Source: Bacteroidia bacterium
Lineage (GTDB): Bacteria; Bacteroidota; Bacteroidia; UBA4408
NCBI GenBank assembly: GCA_014376525.1
Contig: JACMRI010000037.1
Location: forward strand, 1 to 34,116
Length of the DNA stretch: 34,116 bases
Direction of reading: 5' to 3'
In this document: positions 11,849-34,116 of the stretch, piece by piece
How the letters are laid out: each line of letters opens with the position of its first letter
Numbering within the stretch: position 1 is the stretch's first letter
Position numbers and translations under genes: made by a program
Notes under the pieces: model-generated
Databases searched by the model: none
What the model was told of the DNA's origin: nothing
The model's input: only the letters and a program-made list of their open reading frames with translations

Positions 11849-12457
11849 TTAGGTAGTTATTAGTTCGGATAATTTACCTGTTGCAAAACCTTGTGCACCT
11901 AACCATTGTAAGTACTGTGGCAATATTAGTTTAAGATTTTGATATGATTTTTCGTTCTCATGCAACACCACAATAGTGCCTGCTTTTGTTTTTCGTTTTA
12001 ATCGCTCTAGTATTATTTCGGGATTTTTGCTATCCTTAAAATCGTAGCTCATAAGCGTCCACCATGCAATGTGAGTAAAGCGTTTAAATTTTAAATATTG
12101 TGTGGGCGTAAGCTTTCCGTAGGGAGCACGAAACAACTTGGGCACAAAGTTGGGCAACGTTTGCAATGCTTGTTTGCCATAAATAAAATTTTTTATATAT
12201 GTAATGTCATTGGTTTGCCAACCGTTTAGGTGCGCATAACCGTGGTTGGCTACTTCAAATAAAAAATGGTTGTAATTATCATTCAAATAAGTAAAATTAG
12301 AAGCGTTTTCTCCCAACAAAAAAAATGTAGCGGCGCACTTATGTTCTATTAATAATTGCGTAAGCCATTGCGTAGTATGTGGGCAAGGCCCATCATCAAA
12401 AGTAATATACACTTTTGGTGGTGCGGTGGTAAGGTGTTTAAAAGAAGGAATTATCAT
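11849..12457 (-). CDS. Polysaccharide deacetylase family protein
   Basis: A 202-residue NodB-homology enzyme of carbohydrate esterase family 4 type. The metal and catalytic set is complete: TFDDGP (D21 as base, D22 as metal ligand), NHGYAH (H72 and H76 as metal ligands), RAPYGK (R110), WWTLMSYDF (D139) and VVLHE (H166 as acid). There is no signal peptide or membrane anchor, so it is either cytoplasmic or acts after non-classical export. Its substrate, peptidoglycan or another N-acetylated glycan, is not determined by sequence. It diverges from the large amidase gene across about 140 bp. Confidence 0.9.
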   Translation of the reverse strand: MIIPSFKHLTTAPPKVYITFDDGPCPHTTQWLTQLLIEHKCAATFFLLGENASNFTYLNDNYNHFLFEVANHGYAHLNGWQTNDITYIKNFIYGKQALQTLPNFVPKLFRAPYGKLTPTQYLKFKRFTHIAWWTLMSYDFKDSKNPEIILERLKRKTKAGTIVVLHENEKSYQNLKLILPQYLQWLGAQGFATGKLSELITT

Positions 12458-12596: not shown

Positions 12597-15500
12597 ATGA
12601 TTAAAAAAATACTCCTAACAAGCGCATTTGTACTATATATTTTATTATCATTTGCCAATGGTTTACCTAAGGAAGATTATCCTTTAACTAACCCTTACAA
12701 AGTTATTTTTGTTAATAACTACGCCACCTATAAAGCTACTATACCTTTGGGTATATTGGAGGCAGTTGCATTTTCACAAACACATTTTACACACCTAACT
12801 CATTCAAGCAGTACATCATCATCTTGTATAAATATACCTAACTCGTATGGAGTTATGGGTTTAATTGCCGATGGAAAAAGCTATTTCAGAAATAATCTGT
12901 CGTTAATAGCAGTACTGTCTGGCATTAGCGAAAGTGAAATAATAAACAGCCCCGCCAAAAACATTGAAGCCTATGCTGCAGCATACAATTCGTTGGCTGT
13001 ACAAAACAATGTAAATGCAAACAGCCCCATAAAAAGCCATATTGATATTTTAATAGCACTAAGTGAATTACCATTAAACAGCGATATTCAAAACGATTTT
13101 GCTTTAAATGCTCACTTATACAACATATTAAATTTTATAAATAATTATGCAAATTATTCTACTTTATTTGCCGCAAAACCCAATGCAGTAAACCTACACG
13201 ATGTGTTTGGAGATAATTATACTTTACTTTCATCGAGCAAAGTAACCATAGATCACGAAAAAATTTATACCAATAACACAAATTATCGTTTTAGCAACAT
13301 AAACCAAAATAACACTGCATACTCAATAGATTATGGTCCTGCTTTATGGAACCCTACTACTTGCAATAAAAGCTCGCGCAACGGTACGGCCATTACGGCA
13401 TTAGCAATACATACAGTACAAGGCAGTTATGCGGGTTGCATTTCGTGGTTCAAAAATTGTACCGCAAACGCATCAGCACATTATGTTATACGCTCAAGCG
13501 ATGGTCAGGTTACTCAAATGGTTTTGGAATCAGTAAAAGCTTTTCACATAGGTTCAGAAAACCCTTATACTATTGGCATAGAGCATGAGGGATATGTTAC
13601 ACAAGCGTCTTATTACACAACGGCTATGTACAATTCTTCTGCCGATTTATCAATAGATATTTGTACAAGTAACAGTATTGATCCTCTCAAAACATATTAT
13701 GGAGCAGGCTGTACAGGTAGCACAGCGCAATGTGGCTTAGGTGCATGTACAAAAGTTAAGGGACACCAAATGTTTCCTAGTCAAACTCATAACGACCCAG
13801 GTGTAAATTGGAATTGGTTTAAATTTTATAATTTAATAAACAAAACATACACTCCAACTATTGTAAATACTGCAACAGGTTCTATTACCGATGGTGGGGG
13901 TGCGTCTAACAATTATAGTGATGATGAACGCAAGTTAATCAAAATTGCCCCATCAGGAGCCACTAATGTAACGCTTACATTTACTCAATTTGGTTTGGAA
14001 AACGGGTATGATTATTTAATTATTTATGATGGAGGAACCCTCACCTCCCCTGTTATTGGTAAATATACAGGTACATCGAGCCCTGGTACTGTAACTTCAT
14101 CAGGCGGAACAATGCTTGTTGAATATCGTACCGACTGTGCCATTACTGATGTTGGATTTGTGGCTAGTTATACCTCAAGCGGAAGTATTGTAAACTCTTC
14201 AGATGTTATACCTCCAGTTACAACAGTTGTATTAAATGATAACTGGGTGGCTGCAAATTTTACGGCTAACTACATTGATACCGATAATGTTGTGGTGGAA
14301 AAATCGTACTATCAAGTAAGCGATTTTAACGGTACAGAGTGGCGTTCTAATAATGCTAAAGGGTTTTATAACGACAATTTTGATGGCTCAACAATAAATG
14401 CTGAATGGACCAAAAAAGTAGGTACATGGACTATTACAGGCAATGTGTTAGAACAAACAGATCAAAGTTTACCAAACACAAATATTTATACGCCACTTAC
14501 TCAAAATTTATCTAACAGATATTTGTATCACTGGTCGGGTAATATGAGTGGTACAGGTACTAACCGCCGATCTGGGTTTCATTATTTTGTTGATAGTCCA
14601 GACTCTACTAATCGTGGTAATTCGTATTTTATATGGTTTAGGTTAGACGATAAAAAAATTCAAATTTATAAAACACAAAACAATGTATTTGGCGCTCCAG
14701 TTTTAGATTCTACTTATAATTTTACAGCAAATACATGGTACGATTTTAAAGTAATATACGACCGTATAACAGGTAGACACATTGTGTACATTAACAATGT
14801 TCCAGCCTGCGATTATACAGACCCTACACCATTAACTAATGGGCAATACATATCGTGGAGAAGTGGAAACTGTAATTATAAAATTAACAATTTAAGAGTG
14901 TATCGCTCTCGTTTTTCAAGTACGCCAATTTCTGTTGGACCTGCTACCACTAATATGATTCGTTATCAAAATGCATCACCTACAACCCCTGCTGGCCGAA
15001 TACGCTCCATAGCTAATGATGCTGTAGGAAACATATCCGCTGTAGATTTACAAGACGTAAATGTAGATTGGACAGCTCCTCTAGCAGCAACCGTTGAAGA
15101 TGGATTGGGAGCTGACATAGATACTACATTTGATAATGGAAAACTATCATTTAATTTCCCAACACTTACAGATGTAAACTCGGGTATAATTAATTATTCT
15201 TATGCAATAGGTACAACACCAGGGGGTAGCGATGTATATACATGGACTGACTCTATAAGTGGTGCTCCTAAAACCATTACGGGAATATCTACTGTAAATA
15301 ACACTATATACTATGCAAGTGTAATAGGTACTAATGCAGCTGGAACTCCATCAGTAATAAACACCAGCGATGGGCAATTATACTTAGAACCTACTAAACT
15401 AAACTCAATAATTGTTAGTAATCAAAAAGTGATAGTGTGGCCTAACCCGATAAATAAAAACGAAAAAATAAACGTTAGCATTAAAAGTTTAGCAAATGAA

Positions 15501-15674
15501 AAAGCTACAATAGAAATTATAAATGAACTTGGACAACTAATAAAAACAATATCTACACCATTATTAATAGGCGAAAATAATCTAAGCCTTGATAATGGAT
15601 TTACACAAGGTAATTACACACTTAAAATTAACACTAAAGACAATATTTTAATCCAAAAAATAATAATACTTTAA
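12597..15674 (+). CDS. Secreted amidase/CUB protein with T9SS sorting tail
   Basis: A 1025-residue modular secreted protein. It has a signal peptide (KKILLTSAFVLYILLSFANG), then a helical region at ~40-220 that may be a lysozyme-like or linker module. An N-acetylmuramoyl-L-alanine amidase (Amidase_2/PGRP-type) domain follows at ~255-415, with likely zinc ligands H272 (AIHTVQG), H390 (KGHQ) and D400 (NDPG). A CUB domain (~423-527: SDDERKLI ... GYDYLIIYDGG ... VGFVASYTS) comes next. A ConA/LamG-like part (~590-770) and a fibronectin-like part (~820-930) follow. The C-terminus (VWPNPIN ... GNYTLKINTKDN) is a type A T9SS sorting domain, so the protein should cross the outer membrane and be surface-attached or released. 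A PorP/SprF gene follows by 54 bp. Confidence 0.85.
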   Translation: MIKKILLTSAFVLYILLSFANGLPKEDYPLTNPYKVIFVNNYATYKATIPLGILEAVAFSQTHFTHLTHSSSTSSSCINIPNSYGVMGLIADGKSYFRNNLSLIAVLSGISESEIINSPAKNIEAYAAAYNSLAVQNNVNANSPIKSHIDILIALSELPLNSDIQNDFALNAHLYNILNFINNYANYSTLFAAKPNAVNLHDVFGDNYTLLSSSKVTIDHEKIYTNNTNYRFSNINQNNTAYSIDYGPALWNPTTCNKSSRNGTAITALAIHTVQGSYAGCISWFKNCTANASAHYVIRSSDGQVTQMVLESVKAFHIGSENPYTIGIEHEGYVTQASYYTTAMYNSSADLSIDICTSNSIDPLKTYYGAGCTGSTAQCGLGACTKVKGHQMFPSQTHNDPGVNWNWFKFYNLINKTYTPTIVNTATGSITDGGGASNNYSDDERKLIKIAPSGATNVTLTFTQFGLENGYDYLIIYDGGTLTSPVIGKYTGTSSPGTVTSSGGTMLVEYRTDCAITDVGFVASYTSSGSIVNSSDVIPPVTTVVLNDNWVAANFTANYIDTDNVVVEKSYYQVSDFNGTEWRSNNAKGFYNDNFDGSTINAEWTKKVGTWTITGNVLEQTDQSLPNTNIYTPLTQNLSNRYLYHWSGNMSGTGTNRRSGFHYFVDSPDSTNRGNSYFIWFRLDDKKIQIYKTQNNVFGAPVLDSTYNFTANTWYDFKVIYDRITGRHIVYINNVPACDYTDPTPLTNGQYISWRSGNCNYKINNLRVYRSRFSSTPISVGPATTNMIRYQNASPTTPAGRIRSIANDAVGNISAVDLQDVNVDWTAPLAATVEDGLGADIDTTFDNGKLSFNFPTLTDVNSGIINYSYAIGTTPGGSDVYTWTDSISGAPKTITGISTVNNTIYYASVIGTNAAGTPSVINTSDGQLYLEPTKLNSIIVSNQKVIVWPNPINKNEKINVSIKSLANEKATIEIINELGQLIKTISTPLLIGENNLSLDNGFTQGNYTLKINTKDNILIQKIIIL

Positions 15675-15728
15675 TAAAAGCATAAGTAAAACACATTTAC
15701 TAATACATCATACATCACACTTTATAAA

Positions 15729-16646
15729 ATGAAAAAGATAATTTTAGTTGCATCAGTACTTGTAGCAAGTACAGCAGCAATACAAGCACAAAACGATTTA
15801 CAATACGCACATTTTATGGTAAACACACTTACCTACAACCCTGCTGTAGCAGGTAGTAACAATAATTTAGATATTATACTTTTAGGTCGTAAGCAATGGG
15901 TAGGTATAGGACAGTCGCCATTATCACAAACATTAAATGCACATACCTATTTAGAAAAACTAAAAGGTGGAGTTGGTCTTACACTTATTAACGATAAGTT
16001 AGGTTATGAAAGTTCGTTAAACTTAAAGGCAAGCTATGCTTACCATATTAAAATAAACAAAAATGCAACTTTAGCAGCAGGTGCAAGTGTTGGTTTTTTA
16101 TACAAATCGGTGCAGAAAGACAAATTTGTGTTTGACGATCCTACAGACCCTACAGCACAAGCTGTTACTAATACTGCATTTAAGCCCGATTTTAACGTTG
16201 GTTTAGAATTCAGAAATAAAGATTTAGTTGTGGGATTATCAACCACCCACATAGATCAAGGTGTAAGTACTGCCACAGTGTATAAAGTGCCTCGCCACTA
16301 TTTCTTATATGGTAAATACTACATAGCAGTGTCTAAAGATTTGGACATTGTACCATCAGTATTATTTAAAAGCGCAGGCTTTGTTACTCAGTTTGAGGGT
16401 AACGTAAATGTATTGTATCAAAAGAAATACTGGGTTGGAATTACTTATCGTAACAAAGAAGCGGCCGCTGGACTTGTAGGAATGCAAATTAACAACAAGT
16501 TTAAAATAGGGTATGCTTATGATTTTAATATAGGAATAACTAAAGCTAATCACAGTAGTGGATCGCACGAGCTGTTTGTAAACATAATGCTGCCAGGCTT
16601 TAACAAGAAAAAACATTCAATGAAAACTCCTCGTTTCTTTAATTAA
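15729..16646 (+). CDS. PorP/SprF family type IX secretion outer-membrane protein
   Basis: A 305-residue beta-barrel protein with a signal peptide (KKIILVASVLVASTAAIQAQ). The opening NDLQYAHFMVNTLTYNPAVA GSNNNLDIILLGRKQWVG is the signature of the PorP/SprF family. Such proteins work with T9SS to export or anchor particular large surface proteins; SprF for the SprB adhesin is the known example. Here it lies 54 bp after a T9SS-tailed amidase and both end at one terminator. It is therefore probably the dedicated partner of that protein and not the core PorP. The partner assignment is inference from position. Confidence 0.9.
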   Translation: MKKIILVASVLVASTAAIQAQNDLQYAHFMVNTLTYNPAVAGSNNNLDIILLGRKQWVGIGQSPLSQTLNAHTYLEKLKGGVGLTLINDKLGYESSLNLKASYAYHIKINKNATLAAGASVGFLYKSVQKDKFVFDDPTDPTAQAVTNTAFKPDFNVGLEFRNKDLVVGLSTTHIDQGVSTATVYKVPRHYFLYGKYYIAVSKDLDIVPSVLFKSAGFVTQFEGNVNVLYQKKYWVGITYRNKEAAAGLVGMQINNKFKIGYAYDFNIGITKANHSSGSHELFVNIMLPGFNKKKHSMKTPRFFN

Positions 16647-16675
16647 TTATTACAATAAATTATAAACAAAACAAT

Positions 16676-16704
16676 AAAAAAACCACGCAATGCGTGGTTT
16701 TTTT
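16676..16704 (+). terminator. Terminator after the amidase-SprF pair
   Basis: CCACGC (16683-16688), loop AAT, GCGTGG (16692-16697), flanked by A and T runs. It forms a strong intrinsic terminator 30 bp after the SprF-like stop and would work in both directions. Confidence 0.85.
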
Positions 16705-17114
16705 ATTTGCTAATTTACCACAAGCTTTTAGCAGCTATATTATATTGCCGCAAGCGTATTTGTTTGTAGTGTTTTTTATAAATGTTCCTAACTGCATTTA
16801 AGTTTATTGGTTAAGTAAAATAATACCAATAGTATAATTAGAATAGTGCAAATGTTTTATAGTTGTTTAACAAATTTATATTCTCGCTTAGGCAGCAAAA
16901 CAAAGTTAAAACTTACATATACAATACTAATATAGGCTTAGACTCCACAGAGTAGCTGTTACACAAATGCATTAGATAAATAAACTTGAACTACTTAATA
17001 TTTACAATTGTAACAACAAATATAGTGTTTTAGCAAAATAATTTTAGCGCAAACAAAACTGCAACTATATAAATGTTATCCCTCATTAATGCTTAATAAA
17101 TACAACTTTAATAG
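16705..17114. other. Gene-free interval
   Basis: With the preceding terminator this makes 468 bp without a gene, between the SprF-like gene and DUF4783. It is AT-rich, with no convincing ORF, tRNA-like fold, long repeat or perfect TAnnTTTG box on either strand. Both flanking genes end into it, so no promoter is required. Confidence 0.6.
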
Positions 17115-32569: not shown

Positions 32570-34116
32570 TTAATGCACCACTACCAATTTGTGTATAGTG
32601 CTACTTGTATTGTTGTTTATTTTTATCAAATATACACCATTAGTCCAATTAGCAGTGGTAATACTAGTTGTTGTGTTGGTAGTAATGCTGTTTTGTATTA
32701 ACTTACCTGTATAGTCGTACACTTGTAATGCACTGTTAATAGGGGTTTCAACGCTTACTTGCTCGTTAGCTGGGTTAGGATAAATATTTGTACTGTTGCT
32801 TGTTGTTTCTTGTAATCCAATGGTGGAGCCTGTTTCAAACGGACATGTGCCAAATACAGGGCGCAGCATCCAACTGCCTTTTATTATAGATTGATTCCAA
32901 CCCAAGCCTGCATTATAATACATACGTATGTTGCTTATAGTGTTAAGGTCTAAGCCCAAATTAAGGTTGGTTGTTACGTTTTGTTGTAAACCTATATAGT
33001 ACTTGCCCACACCAAGATTTACTGGGGTAGTAAGTGTATACTCGTGAAAGAAGTTAGTACTTACACCATACGTAGGGTTTACAGTAGGTGTCTCCTCGTA
33101 CTTAATAGCACCAGGCTTTCCTGTGCCATCATCTTCCCAAATTGTAATTTTAAAATCTACTACTCGTGCATCTATTACTTGCGGTAAAAAATAATAACGA
33201 ACTGCTGTAAGTGCATCTGGCGTATTTAGTTCTACTTGATACGCTAGTTTACCTTCGGGGAAAAACTGATTTAATTTTAACTCATATCCTGCCTCTGCAG
33301 TACCATCATCATACGATAAAAAATTGGACACATATTGCTTGTAATACACTGTGTCGTTATGTTTGTTTACATCATTAGTAAATGATACAAATTGTTTCAT
33401 GGTATAATACTTACACACTTGCGAATCCGCGTACTGAGCATTAACAGGTATTAAGGGGTGTATTAAATTGTTAAATCCTGTGGTGTTTGCAGCTTGTTGA
33501 TTAACTCCAACACCTAAAACAACAGTAGCATTATTTGGGTTTTGATATTGAAATAATTTTGTTTTGTAATTATCTATTATGGAATAATTTGTTTCTGATG
33601 GTTTTTCGCCACCATTTTGTCCAGTAGGATTTGATAAATTATTCACATAATTATCAAAATTAGATTTAAACATACTTTTTTTATATTGCTTATACGTAAT
33701 ATTAGTGTAACCGTTTAGCAAATTTTGATTATCGTTAATAAAAGCTACATCGTTCAAATACTTGTCGTTGTAATTTCTTCCTTTATCAATATAAATATAA
33801 TCTATGTGCCAATGGTCAAATGCGCCTGATAGTGTTGCATAGTTTTTAAACCTAAACTGAAAGCCTGTTTTTAAAAACTTAAGTTGTGTAAGCGAAATGT
33901 TCACCCATTTAAAATACGTACTGCCTGCACTATCGCCTTCGGCTTTCCATATGTACGTCCAGCCAGTATCTGACGGAGCTTTAAATTCTAGCACTAACGA
34001 ATCTTGCGAGGCATTGGGGGCATTACCATATCCTTTGGGTTGATAAAAAAAACTAAAATAAACAGAATCGTTTACACCATTGGGTACAAATAAATTAATA
34101 GGTTTTGAGGTAAGCA
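32570..34116 (-). CDS. Secreted protein with T9SS sorting tail (5' cut by window edge)
   Basis: The frame stays open to the right edge. An internal GTG at 33992-33994 could be mistaken for a start, but codons 5' of it continue LTSKPINLFVPNG ... YQPKGYGNAPNASQDSLVLE without a stop. At least 515 residues are therefore visible and the N-terminus is missing. The visible region starts with a ConA/MAM-like beta domain (LEFKAPSDTGWTYIWK; FDHWHIDYIYID). A second beta domain (FLSYDDGTAEAGYEL ... VGKYYIGLQQ) follows, then a type A T9SS tail (NIYPNPANEQVSVETP ... NGVYLIKINNN ... KLVVVH). It should be exported through T9SS to the cell surface; its role is unknown. rbfA follows 33 bp on. Confidence 0.9.
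   Translation of the reverse strand, partial: LTSKPINLFVPNGVNDSVYFSFFYQPKGYGNAPNASQDSLVLEFKAPSDTGWTYIWKAEGDSAGSTYFKWVNISLTQLKFLKTGFQFRFKNYATLSGAFDHWHIDYIYIDKGRNYNDKYLNDVAFINDNQNLLNGYTNITYKQYKKSMFKSNFDNYVNNLSNPTGQNGGEKPSETNYSIIDNYKTKLFQYQNPNNATVVLGVGVNQQAANTTGFNNLIHPLIPVNAQYADSQVCKYYTMKQFVSFTNDVNKHNDTVYYKQYVSNFLSYDDGTAEAGYELKLNQFFPEGKLAYQVELNTPDALTAVRYYFLPQVIDARVVDFKITIWEDDGTGKPGAIKYEETPTVNPTYGVSTNFFHEYTLTTPVNLGVGKYYIGLQQNVTTNLNLGLDLNTISNIRMYYNAGLGWNQSIIKGSWMLRPVFGTCPFETGSTIGLQETTSNSTNIYPNPANEQVSVETPINSALQVYDYTGKLIQNSITTNTTTSITTANWTNGVYLIKINNNTSSTIHKLVVVH

Follow-up and report, generated by a model that had tools for sequence, protein, structure and literature searches.

The window analysed here is a stretch of 34,116 bp that makes up the whole of contig JACMRI010000037.1 (C144) in the draft assembly of a Bacteroidia bacterium of the UBA4408 lineage (2.95 Mb, 211 contigs, 94% complete). 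It carries an open reading frame (ORF) of 1025 aa (12597-15674, plus strand) that combines an Amidase_2 peptidoglycan amidase domain, a CUB domain, and a type A sorting tail of the type IX secretion system (T9SS), and 54 bp downstream, on the same strand, a second ORF (15729-16646) that encodes a PorP/SprF-family protein. We consider it reasonably probable that the first product is a type A surface amidase directed against foreign peptidoglycan or debris, that a GH18 enzyme is its partner, and that the PorP/SprF protein serves type B cargo encoded on contigs C5 and C125. The activity, localisation, and substrate of the amidase, as well as the assignment of cargo to shuttle, are what we infer from the comparisons described below. 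An earlier note on this DNA, whose coordinates for both ORFs match those found here, had described an exported wall hydrolase with PorP/SprF as its dedicated helper. As far as the sequence indicates, an exported and probably active zinc amidase, likely to act on extracellular peptidoglycan, holds, and the dedicated helper does not.

The Amidase_2 domain (PF01510; residues 264-402, 13386-13802, plus strand) was identified with 67.5 bits (cut-off 26; E 1.8e-18), by alignment and by its AmpD fold, and it is the sole Amidase_2 match in the genome. The zinc triad that had been proposed, H272, H390, and D400, consists of the right residues, essentially invariant in the alignment of the window protein with 78 relatives: H272 is present in 79/79 sequences, H390 in 78 (one gap), and D400 in 77 (two gaps), and the loss of zinc ligands that would have spoken against the proposal was not seen in these 79 sequences. 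E329 is also found in all 79, an invariance favoured by the selection, because the relatives were collected with DNA patterns derived from a pair of conserved peptides, one of which includes E329; H272, E329, and H390 are invariant also in 28 sequences collected without that pattern. The alignment used for the models comprised 78 of 80 loci, leaving out L187 (stop) and L224 (short). The AF2 model of the N-terminal and amidase domains reached a pLDDT of 89.7, and its amidase site has the AmpD-like fold (2y2b; Z 20.5, rmsd 2.0 over 151 residues, 27% identity). The catalytic roles of positions H272, H390, D400, and E329 are presumably those known from AmpD work. The window amidase thus resembles the AmpD/AmiD-type zinc amidases (PF01510) in its fold, the positions of its zinc ligands, and the Glu, whereas a tail for surface export, a domain of transglycosylase fold at the N-terminus, and a CUB cassette set it apart from them. 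It also differs from AmpD in having a His (H398, in 74 of the 77 sequences without a gap) in place of the Lys located two residues before the Asp ligand. Sequence and model together point to ORF 12597-15674 as an exported zinc amidase that is probably active.

A Sec-type signal peptide (residues 1-22, 12597-12662, plus strand; N-terminus judged by eye) precedes a domain that the earlier note had overlooked, i.e., a degenerate lytic-transglycosylase (SLT/GH23-type) domain (residues 30-222, 12684-13262, plus strand), recognised by AF2, VIA, Foldseek, and alignment. The fold search with the two-domain model returned the amidase only, and the N-terminal domain was then modelled alone (pLDDT 93.6). 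Rows 1-29 of its VIA fold comparison are all lytic transglycosylases (Z 9.0-11.7), the best one with Z 11.7 over 133 residues, rmsd 3.1, and 11% identity, and the best Foldseek match is MltE (E 0.22, prob 0.92). A sequence profile of residues 30-222 found nothing in the PDB, and the Pfam scan of the window protein gave no SLT match; among the 79 aligned members, each Pfam family apart from Amidase_2 matches at most two, and SLT is not among them. A homologue from Streptomyces lends further weight to the assignment, since the corresponding region of that protein scores above the SLT cut-off of Pfam (23.3 bits vs. 21.3); a Nonomuraea homologue stays below it (12.7 bits). The catalytic Glu is kept in both actinobacterial homologues, whereas in the window protein Q61 (12777-12779) occupies its position at the end of the second helix, with the register taken from the alignment. 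Glu was found at this position in 1/152 sequences, the other 151 having Gln, Asn, or another residue; the motif pattern did not pick up 19 of 153 sequences, of which 18 were judged by eye (no Glu) and one, L187, does not contain the stretch. Thus, residues 30-222 are like MltE, MltF, and Slt (SLT, GH23) in fold and differ from them in the replaced catalytic Glu and in giving no SLT match. The actinobacterial SLT-Amidase_2 amidases, such as WP_112443096.1 from Streptomyces cadmiisoli, have the same two-domain core as the window amidase; unlike it, they keep the catalytic Glu, and neither CUB nor a T9SS tail was found in their Pfam scan.

Sequence and model are consistent with residues 30-222 being a dead transglycosylase, probably retained for binding wall glycan. 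The domain could instead be a still active glycosidase with a shifted acid, e.g., the near-invariant E55, and the protein a wall hydrolase with two activities. The lytic-transglycosylase fold itself, the conservation of E55 in 77/79 aligned sequences, and that of the G85-L89 stretch (G85, M87, G88, and L89, each in 68 to 78 of 79) argue for this alternative; however, the catalytic-Glu position is non-Glu in 151 of the 152 sequences and E55 sits six residues upstream in the same helix, so that we judge a second activity to be improbable. The lone sequence with the catalytic Glu (L096:2597-5815) might possess both activities.

The C-terminal part of the amidase contains a CUB domain (residues 426-525, 13872-14171, plus strand; PF00431, E 5e-13), an accessory region that looks like a jelly roll from its sequence (residues about 585-775, 14349-14921, plus strand), and the T9SS type A sorting domain (residues 947-1024, 15435-15668, plus strand), which matches TIGR04183 with 36.8 bits (cut-off 23) and PF18962 (Por_Secre_tail) with 32.9 bits. 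No match to a type B tail was found with TIGR04131/CHU_C or with a type B profile built here. The amidase, CUB, and type A tail domains of the earlier note are therefore matched over the Pfam/TIGR cut-offs, and its zinc triad, PorP/SprF gene, and terminator were recovered as well. Its ConA-like domain was not, since there is no Pfam match in residues 526-946 and no PDB sequence match in residues 575-781. Among 44 diverse homologues, 35 have a CUB domain and 33 a type A tail, the tail carriers including at least two outside Bacteroidota.

From the tail and the literature, the amidase would be exported by Sec, then by the SprA translocon, and would finally be taken by PorV to the surface, where its tail would be cut and the enzyme attached or released. 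There, the pseudo-transglycosylase domain would grip glycan strands and the CUB/jelly-roll cassette would hold the target, while the AmpD-like zinc site is predicted to strip the stem peptides off MurNAc. The substrate would be the peptidoglycan of other bacteria or debris, and the GH18 enzyme encoded on contig C142, which has the same cassette, would cut the glycan chain as a likely partner. The PorP/SprF gene is probably the leftover of a module formed by a type B gene, a PorE-like gene, and a PorP gene that follows the amidase in relatives, its middle genes having presumably been lost. Peptidoglycan as the substrate is supported by the homologue from Chitinophaga sp. YR573 (L208), because in this protein the amidase is followed by a SpoIID domain (Pfam 43.4 bits, cut-off 23; TIGR02669 70.9 bits, below the cut-off of 83.3), fused together with a type A tail. 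SpoIID is described as a transglycosylase that cuts glycan already stripped of its peptides by an amidase (PMC6221140).

The distribution of the family bears on whose wall is attacked. The N-terminal and amidase region has matches in 121/395 genomes of the class, seven of them weak, and in its own family and order only the window genome, one of 8, has a match. Since a search of 7 relatives from the same family, one with a completeness of 71%, gave no amidase match, the gene is not a core wall gene. An empty site is not demonstrable in these relatives, because the best matches to the deacetylase and to RlmH, present in 6 of them, are located on separate contigs. The alternative that the enzyme is directed at wall shed by the cell itself or at its wall in transit, and serves recycling or remodelling instead of attack or scavenging, draws on AmpD, the closest solved relative, being a recycling amidase, and on this being the sole Amidase_2 match of the genome. 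We regard it as unlikely, though, because a surface-export tail is found in 33/44 diverse homologues, at least two of them non-Bacteroidota, together with large accessory cassettes, and because the same-family relatives show no match. A scan of named genomes gave at least 585 stretches that encode a relative; 80 loci from this set were retained, and 100 of the listed class-wide match places were fetched, the partial and weak lowest-ranked ones being left out. The named-genome loci include Lysobacter, Stenotrophomonas, Tahibacter, and Alteromonas; neither a T9SS tail nor PorP was detected for their homologues, so that the enzyme cannot depend on SprF in these bacteria. A phage search gave one weak endolysin match, and the matches of a plasmid search were mainly from Streptomyces, followed by haloarchaea. 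The family would thus comprise common, little-noticed, probable surface wall hydrolases that carry an unannotated transglycosylase-fold domain deprived of its catalytic residue and often co-occur with GH18.

The PorP/SprF gene reported after the amidase is confirmed by matches over the cut-off to PF11751 (E 2.9e-71) and TIGR03519, and its product (15729-16646, plus strand) belongs to the PorP/SprF family of outer-membrane shuttles. In the literature, all type A tails are described as recognised by PorV (PMC12618676), and PorP/SprF proteins act as shuttles and anchors of type B cargo, whose genes commonly lie directly upstream (PMC12618676, PMC9143113). PorV is present in the genome (NF033710, 445.9 bits; cut-off 250), which also contains nine PorP/SprF genes and in which 39 type B tails exceed the Pfam cut-off. 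Five of these nine genes come after a type B gene, three have neither type upstream, and one, that of the window, comes after a type A gene; at 29 further PorP loci, the upstream gene is type B in 12 (one being a repeated own-genome copy), type A in none, and neither in 17. A T9SS cargo gene directly followed by PorP/SprF, as in the window, is also the arrangement of SprB-SprF and Fjoh_3952-Fjoh_3951 (PMC12618676), where the upstream cargo is type B, whereas that of the window is type A.

The downstream neighbours of the amidase were compared at the 129 loci with enough downstream sequence, including the window and seven gammaproteobacterial loci in which T9SS and PorP are not expected. PorP/SprF directly follows the amidase in only one of them, which is the window. 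That the PorP/SprF protein is a dedicated shuttle or anchor of the type A amidase, its own SprF partner as that note had it, agrees with the 54-bp gap, the common strand, and the terminator after PorP. It also agrees with the linkage of this PorP lineage to the amidase locus in three genomes, and a shuttle whose type B partner at the locus had been lost could have taken on a new role. Nevertheless, we find this model rather unlikely, given that type A tails are described as all PorV-recognised (PMC12618676) and that PorV is present, that among the 38 PorP loci of the tree set (one own-genome copy counted twice) the window's alone follows a type A gene, that the adjacency occurs in 1/129 loci, and that a type B gene lies between amidase and PorP in two relatives.

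These two relatives suggest where the PorP gene came from. In genome G280 (L055/L287) and in the metagenome-assembled genome contig JAURXZ010000008.1 (L152), the order is amidase, type B, PorE-like, and PorP/SprF, their type B proteins being 55% and their PorE-like proteins 57% identical. The PorE-like protein of G280 has TPR, PD40, and OmpA domains, a make-up that we take to be that of PorE. In combining PorP with a type B protein and a TPR/PD40/OmpA protein, the G280 locus is similar to the PorE-PorP-PG1035 complex of Porphyromonas gingivalis (PMC9143113), whereas the window keeps PorP alone beside the amidase. The window PorP is the sister of that of G280 (49.7% identity over 304 residues, the next being 36%; tree support 100/99), and the best matches of the L152 PorP fragment (115 aa) are the window and G280 proteins; thus, the window PorP belongs to the amidase locus by descent. 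The earlier note would have counted it against its proposal if SprF-like proteins found here in relatives were partners of unrelated cargo; as type B and PorE-like genes intervene in the two PorP-linked relatives, this is the case in part. The type B and PorE-like middle genes are absent from the window locus, and in the 383 kb of its own genome that were examined the closest PorE-like proteins show 27-31% identity and are encoded elsewhere. Among 20 extended loci, no further copies of the order amidase, type B, PorE, PorP were found. At one of them, a type B gene and a PorP from a different lineage occur farther downstream on the same strand, and at five the opposite strand carries a type B gene paired with a PorP that is likewise from a different lineage. 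The remaining loci mostly extend only about 6 kb downstream, so that a PorP located farther away may have escaped notice. An assembly artefact might also have joined amidase and PorP, as this is a single draft assembly of 211 contigs whose exact gene order was not found in a second genome; however, two other assemblies independently show amidase loci with a PorP from this lineage, so that the link is to be expected, and an artefact is very improbable. After the loss of the local type B and PorE-like genes, the PorP/SprF protein could have acquired the task of collecting or tethering the type A amidase, which appears quite unlikely to us; if true, a type A cargo would have a PorP/SprF shuttle dedicated to it, which would break the rule (PMC12618676) that type A goes with PorV and type B with PorP.

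As an alternative to the amidase, candidate cargo was sought among the type B proteins of the same genome. The similarity of PorP proteins and that of type B tails are correlated across 17 pairs (L258 left out as a copy of L007), with a Spearman coefficient of 0.70 that was equalled in 0/5000 permutations, a result whose strength is overstated because related genomes are among the pairs. The nearest PorP and the nearest tail agree in 13/17 pairs. When the tails of 39 type B ORFs, all from the portions of this genome that were retrieved, were compared with the G280 type B tail, those of C5:24091-28014 and C125:6385-10278 had the highest values (0.479 and 0.470), followed by a type B ORF cut at the contig end on C163 (0.300) and by the next one at 0.247. 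The C5 and C125 proteins are long orphan type B proteins with Ig_7 repeats, and contigs C5, C125, and C163 carry none of the nine PorP genes. Flavobacterium johnsoniae offers a precedent, as one orphan shuttle is common to three orphan type B proteins there (PMC12618676). Judging from the tails and the shuttle lineage, the window PorP would most likely shuttle the orphan type B proteins from C5 and C125 in trans. Pairing tail with shuttle lineage thus offers a testable idea for orphan type B cargo, and the C5 and C125 proteins, as clients of a non-adjacent PorP, would be a warning against reading cargo from adjacency alone. At L238, L241, L243, L245-L249, L253, L255, and L266, a different arrangement was observed, with a PorP clade located 60-238 bp downstream of a gene of about 390 aa that looks, by eye, like an arginase or formimidoylglutamase. 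Our guess is that this clade is the core PorP of the secretion machine.

The GH18 protein proposed as the partner of the amidase (989 aa; G000:C142:14327-17296, L002:361-3330) is a domain-swapped paralogue with the same cassette from CUB to type A tail; it is 43% identical to the amidase from residue 410 onward, and the identity of the two cassettes, counted from CUB, is 44%. A GH18 relative lies directly downstream of the amidase on the same strand at 11/129 loci, independent events being fewer than 11 because the adjacency is concentrated in one family (f21), and within 6 kb at 4 more. Across the 395 genomes, 62 have both genes, 52 the amidase only, 25 GH18 only, and 256 neither (odds ratio 12.2); without 12 genomes with weaker GH18 matches, the corresponding figures are 62, 52, 13, and 268 (odds ratio 24.6). 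By genus, both are present in 28, the amidase only in 24, GH18 only in 13, and neither in 132. Neither the genome table nor the genus table includes the 7 genomes whose amidase matches are weak. As a candidate partner of the amidase, the GH18 enzyme that shares its cassette is better supported than PorP/SprF. Concerted evolution of the two cassettes was tried and rejected, as the partner cassette ranks from 1st to 27th, that of the window being 18th of 27.

Several observations weigh against the interpretation presented here. Firstly, Z values of about 10-12 in a helical domain may reflect a shared arrangement only. Secondly, in addition to its concentration in f21, GH18 adjacency is missing from 118/129 loci, the phylogeny control of the co-occurrence is the genus table only, and the nearest PDB relatives of the GH18 paralogue are the GH18 entry 4wiw, chitinases, and YdhD. 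Thirdly, the intermediate gene order is known from two relatives only, one of which (L152) has its PorP cut at the end of the stretch, and the middle genes could lie in missing parts, because the genome is 94% complete and in 211 contigs. The G280 pair is, moreover, one of the four disagreeing pairs, its nearest PorP and nearest tail pointing to different pairs, both with low similarity. Finally, the 54-bp gap and the terminator 3' of PorP suggest that amidase and PorP are co-transcribed, as a dedicated partner would show. The terminator hairpin itself (16673-16707, plus strand), placed after PorP/SprF in the earlier note as well, is a strong one according to its inverted repeat, folding, and the terminator scan, with a 17-nt perfect inverted repeat and a fold of -19 kcal/mol (z -6.3). 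The consensus scan puts the site on the minus strand, and the plus-strand T run falls within an arm; no terminator-like site was found in the 54-bp gap.

In the literature on T9SS and N-acetylmuramoyl-L-alanine amidases, covered by titles and the starts of abstracts and with subscription papers mostly uncovered, nothing was recognisably on this amidase family. Likewise, no literature was found joining Amidase_2 or type IX secretion with a CUB domain, and nothing related by title on type IX secretion, GH18, and amidase together. At L081, L084, L086, L113, and possibly L116, the gene directly downstream of the amidase encodes a protein of about 400 aa with a type A tail, which in L081 is a YCF48-like (PSII_BNR) protein. 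Adjoining the amidase in the window, a divergent gene (11849-12457, minus strand) encodes a polysaccharide deacetylase without an obvious signal peptide, over the cut-off in Pfam and with PdaB/NodB matches below it. Another gene of the window (32570-33994, minus strand), with no Pfam domain besides the tail, encodes a further T9SS type A cargo of 474 aa.

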